A stretch of 6,340 nucleotides of DNA from Nitrospinota bacterium (GTDB taxonomy: Bacteria > 2-12-FULL-45-22 > JACOWJ01): assembly GCA_016176845.1 (NCBI GenBank), contig JACOWJ010000040.1, forward strand, positions 1 to 6,340, given 5' to 3'. The translations under genes were made by a program, and so were the position numbers. Below are positions 45-6,340 of the stretch, one piece after another. Below the pieces are notes generated by a model that saw only the letters and a program-made list of their open reading frames with translations, had not been told where the DNA came from and did no database searches. Each line of letters starts with the position of its first letter. Within the stretch, counting starts at the first letter, position 1.

Positions 45-1196
45 ATGCCTGTCTCCTTTGACCTCAGTTCGGAGCAGCTGGCCCTTCAGAAGCGCGTCAG
101 AGAGTTTGCCCGCGAGGAGATTCTCCCCCGGGCCGCCGAGATCGACGAGAAGGACGAGTTCCCCGAGGATCTGCTGAAGAAGCTTTACACCCCCCCCACC
201 CAGTTCATCCCGGCCGCCATCCCCAAGGCGTATGGGGGGCCGGGGATGGGCAAGATGGAGTTCTGCATCGTCATGGAGGAGCTGGCTTACGCCAGCGCGG
301 CCTGCTCCACCCTGGTGGAGCTGCTGGCCCTGGCCAGCGGGCCGATCATCCTGGCGGCCGGCGAGGAGTTGAAGCGCAAATACCTGCCGCGCATCGCCAC
401 GGGCGAGATCCTGCCCGCCATCAACATGACCGAGCCGGAGGCGGGCTCGGATGCGGCCGGTATCACCACCACGGCCACCAGGGAGGGCGACGACTACGTC
501 CTCAACGGCATGAAGCGCTACATTAGCTATGCCGACCGGGCCCACGTCTTCTCCACCTCGGTGAAGACCGATCCCTCCAGGGGCTCCAAAGGGATCAGCC
601 TCATCCTGGTCGAGAAGGGGGCGGCGGGCTTCACCACCGAGACGCCCATCCGGTGCATGGGGCTCCGGGGGCACAAGGCTTACTACATGAAGTTCGAGAA
701 CTGCCGGGTGCCCCGCGCCAACCTGGTGGGAGAGGAGGGGAGAGGGCTGAGCTACCTGATGAAGACCCTGGACGGCACCCGCCTCACCCTGGGGGCGGGC
801 TACGTGGGCCTGGCCAGGGCCGCCTTCGACCTGGGGATCCAGTTCACCAAGGAGCGCAAGACCTTCGGGCGGCCCCTCATGGAGAATCAGGCCATCAGCT
901 TTCCCATGGCCGAGCTGGCCGCCGAGATCGAGGCCTCCCGGCTCTTGACTTACAAGGCCGCCTGGATGGACGACCAGGGCCTGCCCCATACCAAAGAGAC
1001 CTCCATCGCCAAGTTTTACGCGGCCGATATGGTGGTCAAGGTAACCGGCAGCGTCGTCTCCTTCATGGGCGGCTGGGGCTGCACCGACGAGTACCCTGCC
1101 GAGCGCTACTATCGGGATGCCAAGACCTGGATCTTCGCCCAGGGGACCCCGCTGATTCAGCGGCTGATCGTGTCCCGGGAGATCTATAAGGATTAA
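45..1196 (+). CDS. acyl-CoA dehydrogenase family flavoprotein lacking the usual catalytic glutamate
   Basis: A full-length FAD-dependent acyl-CoA dehydrogenase of 383 residues, the normal size for the family, cytoplasmic. The helical N-terminal domain is followed by the flavin/substrate motif NMTEPEAGSDAAG (127-139), the beta-domain motif GMKRYISYADRA (155-166), the RKTFGRPLMENQAI signature (271-284) and the C-terminal GGWGCTDEYPAERYYRDAK (342-360). The start is supported by GGGAGGG at 31-37, seven bases before ATG. The family takes a proton and a hydride from acyl-CoA, usually passing electrons to ETF. The catalytic Glu of MCAD/SCAD-type enzymes lies in an EGT motif; here it reads AQGT, giving Gln366 (codon CAG, 1140-1142). 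The alternative base position used by isovaleryl- and long-chain enzymes is Thr245 here (LDGTRLT). Acidic Glu92 falls at the substrate-pocket position of MCAD Glu99. As first gene before a dehydratase/reductase pair it probably handles the same acyl-CoA. The family is certain; the substrate is unknown. Confidence 0.95.
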   Translation: MPVSFDLSSEQLALQKRVREFAREEILPRAAEIDEKDEFPEDLLKKLYTPPTQFIPAAIPKAYGGPGMGKMEFCIVMEELAYASAACSTLVELLALASGPIILAAGEELKRKYLPRIATGEILPAINMTEPEAGSDAAGITTTATREGDDYVLNGMKRYISYADRAHVFSTSVKTDPSRGSKGISLILVEKGAAGFTTETPIRCMGLRGHKAYYMKFENCRVPRANLVGEEGRGLSYLMKTLDGTRLTLGAGYVGLARAAFDLGIQFTKERKTFGRPLMENQAISFPMAELAAEIEASRLLTYKAAWMDDQGLPHTKETSIAKFYAADMVVKVTGSVVSFMGGWGCTDEYPAERYYRDAKTWIFAQGTPLIQRLIVSREIYKD

Positions 1197-2455: not shown

Positions 2456-3742
2456 ATGGAAATGGAAAGAGAAAAAAGGGAAGAGAAGCCCAAATATAAG
2501 TTCAACCGGCTGGAGACGCTCAAGCTCATCGGCCCCTGGGTCGATGCCCACTGGGACGGCCTGCGGGTCGCCAAGAAGGAGGGAAAGAAGGTGGCCTGGA
2601 GCATGGGCCCCCTGTTCCCCATCGCCTACGCCATGGATATCCCCTGCCACTTCCACGCGGGCTACGCGGCTTACTGTGGCGGGAGAAAGGGCGTTCCCCC
2701 CCTGTTGGAGGCGGCCGAGGCCGAGGGCCACATCCTCGACGCCTGCTCGTATCACCGGCTCCACATGGGGGTCATTTCCGCCATTGAGAAGAAGCTCCCC
2801 ATCCGGGAAGAGGTGATGCTGCCCACGCCGGACATCGTCCTGAGCGCCCGGCTGTGCACGGAGCACACCCACCAGAGCGACGCCATCTACCGACACCTGA
2901 AGGTTCCCACCATCGCGATCGATATCATTCCCGCCCACCGGGAATCCGACTTCAAGATGCTGGAGAACTACACCAAGCGGCAGCTCACGGAGGTGGCGAT
3001 CCCCTTCCTGGAGGACTTCTGCGGGCGCAAGTTCGACTATGATCGGCTGAGCGAGCTGCTGGCGGTGCTGAAGAAGGCTTCCGAGATCCGGAACGAGTGC
3101 TGGAAGTTCTTCGAGCTGGTCCCGTCACCCTGGACGCTATGGGACTGGGGGGTCAGCATTGCCCCGGTCTTCTATTTGATGGGGCAGCCGAAGACGGTGG
3201 ATTACTTCCAGCAGCTCAAGGCGGAGCTGCAGCAGCGGGTCGATCAGGGCATCGGGGCGGTCCACCCACAGGAGAATTTCCGGGTCTACTGGGACGGCTG
3301 GGTCCCCTGGTCCTTCCTGGGTCCCATCAGCCGCAAGCTCCTCTCCTTCGGCGCCAACCCCATCGTGGGCAAGTATCCGTGGGAGTTCTTCCCCCATCCC
3401 GAGGGGATCGACCCCAACCGACCTATCGACTCGATCGTGGAGCAGTGGTACAGCTACATGATGTCCACCCGCAGCTCCCCCGAGTTCGCCCTGCCCTTCA
3501 TCGAGGAGTCCGTGGAGAAGTACCATTTGGACGGCATGATCATGTTTGCTTCCCGCACCTGCCGGCTGTGGAACCTGGGCGAGCAGGACATTATCGACGA
3601 GATCGAGCGAAAGTATGGCATCCCCGGGGTGGTGCTCGAGGCCGACATGATTGACCCCAAGTTCTTCTCCGAGGGCCAGATCGACACCCGGCTGCAGGCC
3701 CTCTTCGAGATGATGGAGGCGCGGAAACGGCGACGGCGGTAA
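2456..3742 (+). CDS. 2-hydroxyacyl-CoA dehydratase / benzoyl-CoA reductase family subunit, BcrB/BadE/BzdO-like
   Basis: A 428-residue partner of the preceding subunit, in the size range of BcrB/BadE-type subunits. The first 15 residues are highly charged and probably disordered. Landmarks are GYAAYCGGRKGVPPLLEAAE (69-88), ILDACSYHRLHMGV (93-106), LSARLCTEHTHQSDAIYRHL (129-148), FRVYWDGWVPW (275-285), LDGMIMFASRTCRLWNLG (358-375) and a C-terminal EADMIDPKFFSEGQIDTRLQ (395-414), typical of the family. Cys97, Cys134 and Cys369 occupy the three conserved ligand positions for a [4Fe-4S] cluster, so this subunit looks competent. It should dimerise with the upstream subunit to form the two-cluster catalytic unit. 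GGGAG at 2443-2447, eight bases before ATG, supports the start. The 97-bp gap upstream is larger than that before the first subunit and holds inverted repeats, so the ratio of the two subunits may be tuned there. The C-terminus ends in a run of arginines (RKRRRR). Confidence 0.92.
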   Translation: MEMEREKREEKPKYKFNRLETLKLIGPWVDAHWDGLRVAKKEGKKVAWSMGPLFPIAYAMDIPCHFHAGYAAYCGGRKGVPPLLEAAEAEGHILDACSYHRLHMGVISAIEKKLPIREEVMLPTPDIVLSARLCTEHTHQSDAIYRHLKVPTIAIDIIPAHRESDFKMLENYTKRQLTEVAIPFLEDFCGRKFDYDRLSELLAVLKKASEIRNECWKFFELVPSPWTLWDWGVSIAPVFYLMGQPKTVDYFQQLKAELQQRVDQGIGAVHPQENFRVYWDGWVPWSFLGPISRKLLSFGANPIVGKYPWEFFPHPEGIDPNRPIDSIVEQWYSYMMSTRSSPEFALPFIEESVEKYHLDGMIMFASRTCRLWNLGEQDIIDEIERKYGIPGVVLEADMIDPKFFSEGQIDTRLQALFEMMEARKRRRR

Positions 3743-4008: not shown

Positions 4009-4013
4009 AAGGA
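4009..4013 (+). promoter_or_regulatory. ribosome binding site deciding the activator start
   Basis: AAGGA at 4009-4013 lies five bases before ATG 4019 but overlaps ATG 4013. This favours the second ATG, giving a protein beginning MPEIYAGIDVGS, which is also the usual N-terminal length for this family. Confidence 0.7.
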
Positions 4014-4018
4014 TGAAC

Positions 4019-4801
4019 ATGCCTGAGATTTATGCCGGCATCGACGTAGGTTCCCTGTGCACGAAGGTGGTGATCCTGGATGCCGGGCGAAACGTCCTCT
4101 CTTCGCATATCCTGCGGAGCGGGGGGCACTACCAGGGGGCGGCCGAGGCCGCCTTCTCCGGGGCACTGGAGTCGGCTGGACTTCGGATCAAAGAGATCAG
4201 CTTTCTGGTCTCCACCGGCTATGGGCGGGCCCGGGTCACCTTCTCCGACACCCACGTGACCGAGATCACCTGCCATGCCCGGGGGGCGAAGCATCTCTTT
4301 CCCCATGTCCACACCGTGATCGACATCGGGGGACAGGACAGCAAGGTGATCTACGTCAACGACGAGGGCCGGCCCAAGAACTTCGTCATGAACGACAAGT
4401 GCGCCGCCGGGACCGGCCGGTTTCTGGAGGTGATGGCGGGGGCCCTGGAGGTGAGCCTGCAGGAGATGGCGGAGCTCTCCTTCCACGCCCAGGGGGAGAG
4501 CGAGGTGAGCAACATGTGCACCGTCTTTGCAGAGTCGGAGGTCATCTCGCTGTTGGCCCAGGGGACGGAGAAGGCCGACATCGCCGCCGCCATCTTCCGC
4601 TCCATCGCCCGGCGGATCACGGGGCTGGTGGGAAAGCTGGGGCTGAAGGAGCCGGTGGTGATGACGGGCGGGGTGGCCAAAAACCCGGGGATGGTGCGAG
4701 CCCTGGAGGAGAAGCTGCGCACGACCCTTCTCATTCCCCCCGAGCCCCAGATCATGGGGGCCTATGGGGCCGCCTTGATCGCGGCGGAGCAATCCGATTG
4801 A
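4019..4801 (+). CDS. ATP-dependent activator (BadF/BadG/BcrA/BcrD/HgdC family) of the dehydratase/reductase
   Basis: A 260-residue ASKHA-fold ATPase of the short, HgdC-like type. Visible in order: phosphate-1 motif AGIDVGS (6-12), phosphate-2 motif DIGGQDSK (102-109), NDKCAAGTGRFLE (125-137) with Cys128, MCTVFAESEVISL (166-178) with Cys167, adenosine motif TGGVAKNPG (216-224) and GAYGAAL near the end. Cys128 and Cys167 each open a helix and by family knowledge bind one [4Fe-4S] cluster between two monomers, the helix-cluster-helix architecture. The protein accepts an electron from ferredoxin or flavodoxin and injects it into the dehydratase/reductase on ATP hydrolysis. Only one ATPase gene is present, pointing to a homodimer as in 2-hydroxyacyl-CoA dehydratases rather than the two different ATPase subunits of benzoyl-CoA reductases. 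ATG 4013 would add MN but lies on the ribosome binding site. The stop overlaps the next start. Confidence 0.95.
   Translation: MPEIYAGIDVGSLCTKVVILDAGRNVLSSHILRSGGHYQGAAEAAFSGALESAGLRIKEISFLVSTGYGRARVTFSDTHVTEITCHARGAKHLFPHVHTVIDIGGQDSKVIYVNDEGRPKNFVMNDKCAAGTGRFLEVMAGALEVSLQEMAELSFHAQGESEVSNMCTVFAESEVISLLAQGTEKADIAAAIFRSIARRITGLVGKLGLKEPVVMTGGVAKNPGMVRALEEKLRTTLLIPPEPQIMGAYGAALIAAEQSD
4786..4789 (+). promoter_or_regulatory. ribosome binding site for the TTG-started PHP gene
   Basis: GGAG at 4786-4789, inside the end of the activator gene, sits eight bases before TTG 4798. It supports a TTG start that overlaps the activator TGA by four bases (TTGA, 4798-4801) and hence translational coupling. 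Confidence 0.6.
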
Positions 4802-5406
4802 AGCTTAAGCTGGATCTGCACACCCACTGCCTGGAGGCCGTCAACTTCGCCCGCCCCGAGCCCAAGACGGTCCGAAGGATACTCGAGGCCGTTCAAGCCG
4901 CGGGGCTGGATGGGATCGCCATCACCGACCATGCCGAGATCGGCGATGGCTTCGCCTACGCGGCCCGGGAGGTCGTCGAGCGCCACTTTCCCGGGGAGAT
5001 CCTGGTCATCCCGGGGCGAGAGCTGCGCTGGCGCACCCATCACCTCGTTGAGCTCGACCTGCCCGAGGGTCTCACCTTTCGCTTCCTGGCGCATCCGGGA
5101 AGGGACCTCTCGGCCTGGGATGGCTGCGTGGAGCGGATCCGAGAACCTTCCGGAGTGGCGGGTTTCCAGGCCGCCCCCATTCTCCCCAATTCGCCTCCTC
5201 ATCCAGGGTTTCCGGATAGTCCGCGGGAGAAGCTCCACGGCCTGGAGATCGAGAACGGCAACCAGACCATCGACCGGGCGAGAGTCCTGGCCTTTGCACA
5301 GCGCCACGGGCTCCTGCTCCTCTCGAACAGCGATGCCCACAGCCTCTCCGACATTGGAAACCACTACACCGAGACCTCCCTGGAAGAGCTCTGCGCTTAC
5401 ATCTGA
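4798..5406 (+). CDS. PHP-domain metal-dependent hydrolase, TTG start, coupled to the activator gene
   Basis: A 202-residue protein made almost entirely of one PHP domain, the fold of histidinol-phosphatase-like phosphoesterases. Metal-site motifs appear in order: DLHTH (His8, His10), ITDHAEIGD (Asp44, His45), GREL (Glu75), FLAHPGRD (His99) and SNSDAHSLSDIG (Asp179, His181), so the site looks complete and should bind two or three divalent metals. Family members hydrolyse phosphate esters or related substrates; the substrate here is unknown. There is no in-frame ATG anywhere in the domain. The frame stays open far upstream within the activator gene, but DLHTH requires a start just before it, and TTG 4798 with GGAG gives exactly that. 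Residues about 117-143 are rich in Pro and resemble no PHP motif, so they may be an insertion or a pair of compensating frameshifts. A link to acyl-CoA metabolism is suggested only by coupling. The cytoplasm is its likely site. Confidence 0.88.
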   Translation: MKLKLDLHTHCLEAVNFARPEPKTVRRILEAVQAAGLDGIAITDHAEIGDGFAYAAREVVERHFPGEILVIPGRELRWRTHHLVELDLPEGLTFRFLAHPGRDLSAWDGCVERIREPSGVAGFQAAPILPNSPPHPGFPDSPREKLHGLEIENGNQTIDRARVLAFAQRHGLLLLSNSDAHSLSDIGNHYTETSLEELCAYI

Positions 5407-5441
5407 GTTTCCTTCTTTGCCCGCCCCCCTCTAACGATGGA

Positions 5442-5483
5442 TCAGACATCTCCAACCTGTTGGATCGGTCCAAGATGAGGCAT
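5442..5483 (-). pseudogene. hicA: hicA toxin relic, 13 codons
   Basis: ATG 5483-5481 overlaps the hicB stop by one base (TAATG), the usual coupling of hicBA pairs. The peptide reads MPHLGPIQQVGDV and ends at TGA 5444-5442. From memory, HicA toxins paired with this HicB type begin MPKLGPI followed by a helix and a GGKH-like motif, about 70-80 residues in all. Only the first seven or eight codons match; the rest is gone, and the sequence beyond has the GC-rich character of the neighbouring operon. The toxin is therefore very probably absent. The shortness of the match limits certainty. Confidence 0.6.
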
Positions 5484-5725
5484 TAGGCAACTTCCTTAAT
5501 GGACAATTCGATTCCATAGATTATGGGTAAAGGAAGGTTTTTGTGAATCCGAAATAAAATCCATTCTTCCAGAACCTCTTCCAATTGTTCTCGGCACTCC
5601 TCAAGGGTCTGTGCATTGGCATAAACGCCATTACATTCTGGAATTTCCCCATAATAAGTGCCATCGTCTGATAGTATTTCATATTTTGCACAACGTAGCG
5701 CAGCTCGTATGTAGTTTATTAACAT
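5483..5725 (-). CDS. hicB: HicB-family antitoxin, orphaned
   Basis: An 80-residue small protein of the HicB / UPF0150 type. The characteristic partial RNase H-like segment is YYGEIPECNGVYANAQTLEE (24-43), followed by a helix CREQLEEVLEEWILFRI and the C-terminal PLPIIYGIELSIKEVA. It has no DNA-binding C-terminal extension, so it is the short form. HicB normally binds and inhibits the mRNA-cleaving toxin HicA encoded next to it. Here the downstream hicA is reduced to a 13-codon relic and there is no room for an intact copy on the upstream side. It starts 20 bp after the stop of the truncated methyltransferase. No strong ribosome binding site is visible before ATG 5725. Base composition is much more AT-rich than the plus-strand operon, consistent with transfer. 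Family assignment is secure; activity as a free antitoxin is doubtful. Confidence 0.85.
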   Translation of the reverse strand: MLINYIRAALRCAKYEILSDDGTYYGEIPECNGVYANAQTLEECREQLEEVLEEWILFRIHKNLPLPIIYGIELSIKEVA

Positions 5726-5745
5726 GATAGTTTAATGCGCTCAGG

Positions 5746-6243
5746 TTATTGAGAAATGGCCGCCGTGTAGATATTTATCTTCCCTTTTTTCTCAAATCCG
5801 ACAACCCGAAATCCTTTCGTTTCTAAAGTGTTTCTTCCGTCATGGTAATCCTGGAAATTGGGCCATGGAGCATTTTCCAGCTTTAATAATGGAACCAAAA
5901 TTTTTCTCATTGATCTTATAGTGAGAGTTTCATCCTCCCAGTGCATCGCATCGAAGATGAAATATCCATCACCTTGTAAACGTAAGAATCTCATTATATT
6001 TTCCAAAAAATATAACATTTCGTTTTTTCTCAGATAAAACATCACTCCCTCTGCAACCATAATTGTTTTTGGATTATAAATATATTCATCAAACATGAAA
6101 ATATCATCATCTATCACATTAAAAGGTTTTAAAATATGATTATCTCTTTTCAATGGAATCATTTCTGTTTTAAAATTTATGACTTCAGGTAAATCACTCT
6201 CAATATAAGCTAAATTTGGATATTTTTCCGTAAACTTAAGCCT
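5746..6243 (-). pseudogene. SAM-dependent methyltransferase (LCM/COG3315-like), N-terminal half missing
   Basis: The reading frame ends at 5746 with the peptide IYTAAISQ. Recognisable segments are FTEKYPNLAYIESDLPEVI (about 6232-6176), MVAEGVMFYLRKNEML and GYFIFDAMHWEDE, the pattern of leucine-carboxyl-methyltransferase-like O-methyltransferases (acidic DLPEV segment, then the EGVxxYL motif). The first ATG in frame is at 6162, but homology plainly runs upstream of it to about 6243, and no ATG, GTG or TTG lies in frame between 6163 and the window edge. The glycine-rich SAM-binding motif expected just before the DLPEV segment is absent; instead the frame enters unrelated sequence (GGIPGPKIGQKIHPKN). 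About 166 residues remain of a family usually near 270-300. It is therefore most likely a 3' remnant cut by an insertion or recombination. Codon use is AT-rich, unlike the operon. Confidence 0.65.
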
Positions 6244-6340
6244 GGGGTGTCCAAAAACGCTGTTTTTAGGGTGTATTTTTTGCCCGATTTTTGGACCCGG
6301 GATACCACCCCATTCAACCGTGATCAGCCGTGAGAGCCAC
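6241..6340. mobile_element. possible mobile-element end abutting the truncated methyltransferase
   Basis: Composition changes abruptly at about 6241 from very AT-rich to mixed, exactly where the methyltransferase similarity stops. The new sequence opens CCTGGGGTGTCCAAAAACGC, contains a perfect 9-bp inverted repeat (6249-6257 with 6288-6296) and GGGTGT twice (6245-6250, 6269-6274). This suits the terminus of an insertion sequence, but no transposase or second terminal repeat is inside the window and I cannot name a family. Confidence 0.35.
6249..6296. repeat. 9-bp perfect inverted repeat, GTCCAAAAA / TTTTTGGAC
   Basis: GTCCAAAAA (6249-6257) pairs perfectly with TTTTTGGAC (6288-6296) across 30 bases. 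Two more G-C pairs follow outward after a one-base bulge (6246-6247 with 6297-6298). It could be a hairpin, an internal element of an insertion-sequence end, or a transcription stop. Confidence 0.7.

Follow-up and report, generated by a model that had tools for sequence, protein, structure and literature searches.

A conserved group of acyl-CoA dehydrogenases with glutamine at the position of the catalytic glutamate, and probably with altered acid-base chemistry, in uncultured anaerobes

The window (i.e., the whole 6,340-nucleotide stretch of DNA analysed here) comes from a 1.5-Mb MAG that is 68% complete, and it opens with a forward-strand gene for an acyl-CoA dehydrogenase (ACAD) of 383 aa (45–1196). 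Both its domains and its fold make this protein a member of the ACAD family: PF02771, PF02770 and PF00441, which represent the N-terminal, middle and C-terminal ACAD domains, all score above cut-off, and the structure predicted by AlphaFold2 (pLDDT 90.7) matches ACAD structures with Z-scores of about 47–53, among them 8sgs (Z 52.9, 1.6 Å across 378 residues). The protein reaches the cut-off of none of the NCBIfam models, its top score being 341 bits with that of the acryloyl-CoA reductase AcrC (cut-off 640).

Further downstream on the same strand lie the beta subunit (1228–2358, 376 aa; PF06050, 266 bits) and the alpha subunit (2456–3742, 428 aa; PF06050, 158 bits) of a complex of the 2-hydroxyacyl-CoA dehydratase/benzoyl-CoA reductase type (HGD-D), an ATP-dependent activase (BcrAD/BadFG) that is the only one in the cluster (4013–4801; TIGR00241, 283 bits against a cut-off of 125), and a PHP-type phosphoesterase-like protein (4798–5406; PF13263) whose TTG start overlaps the activase stop. 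The best-matching chains for the beta subunit are MbdN (189 bits), a subunit of methylbenzoyl-CoA reductase, and HadC (172 bits), with three cysteines retained in alignment with those of HadC. The alpha subunit likewise retains three cysteines aligned to Had cysteines and scores higher with HadB (126 bits) than with BzdO (75) or MbdO (65), and the activase matches MbdQ, HadI and HgdC at about 231–236 bits. Class I benzoyl-CoA reductases possess two activase-type subunits, whereas 2-hydroxyacyl-CoA dehydratases possess one. Two different activase-type subunits occur neither in the window nor in the conserved operons, although a second one may be encoded elsewhere in the genome; the gene set present, two HGD-D subunits with their cysteines plus one activase, is that of a 2-hydroxyacyl-CoA dehydratase, although this does not in itself prove dehydration. 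Because of the HadB-best alpha scores, the conserved cysteines and the single activase, these neighbours appear at least as likely to form a dehydratase as a benzoyl-CoA reductase. Described earlier as benzoyl-CoA-reductase-like, they are HGD-D proteins accompanied by a lone activase, and the alpha subunit matches best to 2-hydroxyisocaproyl-CoA dehydratase.

The HGD-D family (PF06050) is greatly expanded in this lineage: the 1.5-Mb window genome has 29 matches, and a relative from the same phylum has 67. The closest homologue of the beta subunit (69%), in that same relative (L154, 7314–8441), has OYE/BaiCD-type enoate reductases and a NifH-like protein as neighbours instead of an ACAD, on a contig that ends there. 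At the right end of the window (5401–6340), G+C content drops from about 62% to 34–40%, and this segment holds a UPF0150/HicB-like gene (5483–5725, reverse strand) and a methyltransferase-like fragment (5746–6339, reverse strand) that was recognised by eye and has no Pfam match. The low-G+C end may be a recent insertion or an assembly join.

Within the ACAD, the codons TTC GCC CAG GGG ACC (1134–1148) encode F364, A365, Q366, G367 and T368, and HMMER alignments against five solved ACADs align Gln366 (CAG, 1140–1142) with the Glu in [YF]EGT, i.e., with Glu376 in MCAD. The catalytic Glu of MCAD/SCAD-type enzymes is thus replaced by Gln, as the earlier note had proposed. That note had also assigned the alternative base position, where isovaleryl and long-chain enzymes carry Glu, to Thr245 (777–779); the alignments bear this out, so there is no base at that site.

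Relatives with the same substitution were not to be found nearby: ACAD paralogues in the window genome and in one phylum relative include none with Gln at this position and none closer than 41% identity, and an exact-peptide scan of named genomes returned only relatives of at most 44% identity, carrying Glu or other residues, and none with Gln. A scan of IMG/VR gave no match, and the 2005 plasmid records that matched were all below 60% identity (best 41%). True orthologues were reached by searching with the neighbouring beta subunit. The ACADs of the Desulfobacterota-type operons are 44–45% identical to the window protein where aligned in full, and their motif reads RDARTWVFAQGAP, compared with RDAKTWIFAQGTP in the window. 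Profile searches enlarged the set to 17 Gln-bearing homologues, which we compared with 73 other ACADs. Besides the window protein, these comprise five of Desulfobacterota type (L170–L174), one from a GRE/CaiB locus (L202), six that share one phylum (L203, L207, L226–L229), and those of L208, L230, L231 and L232; they span at least five lineages of uncultured anaerobes. Among nine genomes compared in the shared phylum, six have a Gln-type ACAD. An in-frame TGA in L203 and L207 was considered as a case of recoding and ruled out, since it forms part of a tandem stop that closes the gene.

The glutamine does not stand alone. All 17 clade members carry Gln366, which none of the 73 other ACADs has, and the same perfect co-occurrence holds for Glu92 (318–320) and for His210 (672–674), the latter within an [RK]GH motif where most other ACADs have Ser or Thr. 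Arg158 (516–518), which adjoins a flavin-contacting strand, is found in all 17 but in only 4% of the others; Thr245 is likewise Thr in all 17; and in the W-x-x-A segment that precedes Gln366 (Trp362 to Ala365, 1128–1139), neither Trp nor Ala varies among clade members. The full set of residues that are fixed or nearly so within the clade and rare outside it consists of Pro51, Glu92, Arg158, His210, Thr245, Leu249, Gly252, His315, Thr319, Trp362, Ala365 and Gln366. Glu92, Arg158, His210, Thr245, Trp362 and Ala365 thus change jointly with Gln366.

In a maximum-likelihood tree of 80 ACADs, from which the trait columns had been removed, the 10 Gln-type sequences then known (of the later 17) fell on one branch with 100% SH-aLRT and a single origin. 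Pairwise dN/dS within clade subgroups is about 0.03–0.05. Given these ratios and the fixed companion residues, the Gln-type branch is a functional subfamily under strong purifying selection and not a product of decay, in keeping with the earlier judgement, made on the intactness of the protein, that decay is unlikely. The conservation of Gln in 17 homologues rules out a sequencing error or a recent mutation, and a pseudogene is ruled out by the intact model and the low dN/dS. Orthologues carrying Glu would have told a different story, but the operon orthologues retain Gln. That a distinct Gln-type clade exists is nearly certain, and it constitutes a new ACAD subfamily in which the acid-base chemistry is probably altered. 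We found no description of a native Gln at the catalytic-Glu position in the literature searched, and an earlier description may exist elsewhere.

The genomic surroundings of the clade vary. The window's order of Gln-type ACAD, beta subunit, alpha subunit, activase and PHP gene is kept in Desulfobacterota-type MAGs (L158, L160, L200); L161 has an additional beta/alpha pair ahead of the activase, and in L159 the contig ends inside the activase. PHP homologues come after the same genes in L158, L160, L161 and L200. About half of the known clade neighbourhoods are without dehydratase-type subunits, and, conversely, related beta/alpha genes adjoin an ACAD with Glu in L153, L155 and L156. Elsewhere the clade ACAD adjoins thiolase, DUF35 and CoA-transferase genes (L213, L226–L229) or thiolase and DUF35 genes (L212), adjoins a BKACE (L230), or lies near thiolases, DUF35, CoA ligase, BKACE and MaoC (L232), near GRE, CaiB and MaoC (L202), or near CaiB and crotonases (L201). 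Because the neighbourhoods differ between lineages, the clade members need not all share one reaction. BKACE genes (PF05853) thus occur near Gln-type ACADs in two lineages (L230, 6270–8337; L232), and the L230 copy resembles the cleavage enzyme of lysine fermentation, below its cut-off. The glycyl radical enzyme of L202 (1240–3648), which adjoins CaiB and the Gln-type ACAD, falls outside the curated families (best equivalog HypD, 521 of 1100 bits).

Since Gln always stands in place of the acid and several active-site positions have changed with it, the Gln-type ACADs probably carry out a reaction different from that of their textbook relatives. Two features, the lost C2 base and the newly conserved polar residues, argue that catalysis starts in some other way than by the usual Glu deprotonating C2. 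We tentatively favour, as one possible reading, a moved acid-base (Glu92, with or without His210) serving vinylogous hydride chemistry within anaerobic acid degradation. FAD and acyl-CoA binding would be retained; Gln366 would still contact the thioester carbonyl through its backbone and form a hydrogen bond through its side chain, while abstracting no C2 proton; and Ala365, being smaller than the motif Tyr, could leave space for an acyl group that is bulky or branched. The carbon involved in proton transfer would be a different one; Glu92, on the helix of the pocket, would serve as the acid-base, possibly together with His210, and flavin hydride transfer would be coupled to dehydrogenation or reduction of a vinylogous (1,4) type. 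Within the window operon, the ACAD might catalyse a step that precedes or follows an ATP-driven 2-hydroxyacyl-CoA dehydratase, as part of an anaerobic route of acid degradation. Replacement of the motif Tyr by small residues is known to go with alpha-branched or bulky substrates (PMC8360864, PMC11659651).

The operon itself invites a different reading, in which the protein is an enoyl-CoA reductase that comes into play once the 2-hydroxyacyl-CoA dehydratase has acted, as happens when amino acids are fermented reductively, and obtains its alpha proton from water or His210 rather than from Glu. The adjacent dehydratase-type alpha and beta genes with one activase, in an order conserved in several genomes, would suit such a role, as would the AcrC model as best NCBIfam score, though at 341 bits it stays below its cut-off of 640. 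However, characterised reductases of the AcrC and CarC types are not known to lack the Glu, some of the closest dehydratase homologues adjoin a Glu-bearing ACAD (L153, L155, L156), other clade members have degradative neighbours, and the gene contexts examined contained no recognisable ETF genes; we regard a reductase of this kind as unlikely. Quite unlikely, too, is a base-free oxidative decarboxylation of a 2-carboxyacyl-CoA of malonyl type, in which loss of CO2 replaces C2-proton removal and a carboxylate that Glu would repel is accommodated or bound by the uncharged Gln. Here Arg158 and His210, both conserved and cationic or polar, could hold the carboxylate, and there is a precedent in IaaF (benzylmalonyl-CoA dehydrogenase), which is without the catalytic Glu and is suggested to split off the 2-carboxy group instead (PMC8360864). 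But the IaaF motif is GGG where the window has AQG, and neither carboxylase, mutase nor iaa-type genes were recognised in the neighbourhoods examined.

ACAD-like enzymes can also be redox-neutral lyases or isomerases with transient use of the flavin: BbuA performs trimethylamine elimination (PMC8364193), and 3-sulfinopropionyl-CoA desulfinase is a lyase (PMC8360864). Clade members near CaiB CoA-transferases (L201, L202) and BKACE (L230, L232), as in amino-acid and betaine pathways, would be compatible with a similar activity. Yet with the desulfinase family model, whose cut-off is 600 bits, the window protein reaches just 229, and any link to trimethylammonium compounds and any leaving group would be hypothetical; we consider this role distinctly improbable. 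Finally, the protein could be catalytically dead or regulatory: exchange of Glu for Gln at the base position inactivates human LCAD (Glu291Gln; PMC11153573). The co-conserved new residues, the intact family signatures, the strong purifying selection and the conservation of the operon all speak against such a protein, and we consider it very improbable.

The acid-base may have been relocated as outlined above for Glu92, since this residue is a signature of the entire clade. The wider proposition, that the clade represents a new ACAD reaction class in which a Glu92/His210 pair has taken over the acid-base role of the C-terminal Glu and proton-hydride chemistry takes place away from C2/C3, in several candidate phyla and in different anaerobic pathways (dehydratase, BKACE, thiolase/DUF35, glycyl-radical), is one that we would call doubtful. 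Whatever the reaction, an exchange that is a standard way to inactivate ACADs has been kept in nature, with fixed companion residues, across several uncultured lineages. The family, which is probably easily expressed, offers a test case for the coupling of flavin to proton transfer at other carbons; and in genomes that carry it, the annotation ‘acyl-CoA dehydrogenase’ is likely to mislead pathway reconstruction.

Compared with MCAD, SCAD and butyryl-CoA dehydrogenase, the window ACAD has the same fold (Z about 49–53), the same domains and 32–40% identity, but it has Gln for the catalytic Glu and Ala for the motif Tyr, and its His210, Arg158 and Trp362 are new. Glu92 falls at the position of MCAD Glu99, by an ungapped count back from a conserved Pro; Glu99 is not known to be catalytic in MCAD. 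With IaaF, as defined in PMC8360864, the window protein shares the ACAD framework and the absence of the catalytic Glu, and differs in motif (AQG, not GGG) and in its neighbours, which are unrelated to the iaa operon. Another Glu-less ACAD type recurs as adjacent pairs in Syntrophus/Syntrophorhabdus-type MAGs (L031, L032, L042, L047, L051); these ACADs have GGG for YEG, and an acid lies within ILxE or LDEVR. The 3-sulfinopropionyl-CoA desulfinase (NF042439) also combines an ACAD fold with the lack of a catalytic base, and the window protein lies far below the cut-off of that family; BbuA (gamma-butyrobetainyl-CoA TMA-lyase) is ACAD-like and encoded with class III CoA-transferases. For the neighbouring genes, (R)-2-hydroxyisocaproyl-CoA dehydratase (HadBC/HadI) and the class I benzoyl-CoA reductases offer the same HGD-D alpha/beta architecture, conserved cysteines and ATP-dependent activase, but the window subunits score below the NCBIfam equivalog cut-offs and are accompanied by one activase only.

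The comparison drawn in the earlier note was with cyclohexene-CoA dehydrogenase, an enzyme that reportedly works without a C2 base and has its acid, Asp91, on a pocket segment of the N-terminal domain. Its structures (PDB 7p98, 7p9a, 7p9x) match the window fold at Z 51–52 with 38% identity, and it ranks 27th against the clade's first profile, among ordinary SCAD-like chains, i.e., no closer to the clade than ordinary SCADs. The analogy survives as a principle, in the missing C2 base, and fails in descent and in the residue itself: by residue numbering of the aligned ranges, Asp91 corresponds roughly to Ala95/Leu96 of the window protein, which is not an acid, and not to Glu92. Glu92, which the earlier note placed in the matching region, is a clade-wide signature residue that matches MCAD Glu99 and sits about one helical turn away from the inferred Asp91 position. 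Because both positions belong to helix 85–104 of the model, roughly one turn apart, Glu92 and the equivalent of Asp91 probably lie on the same face of that helix.
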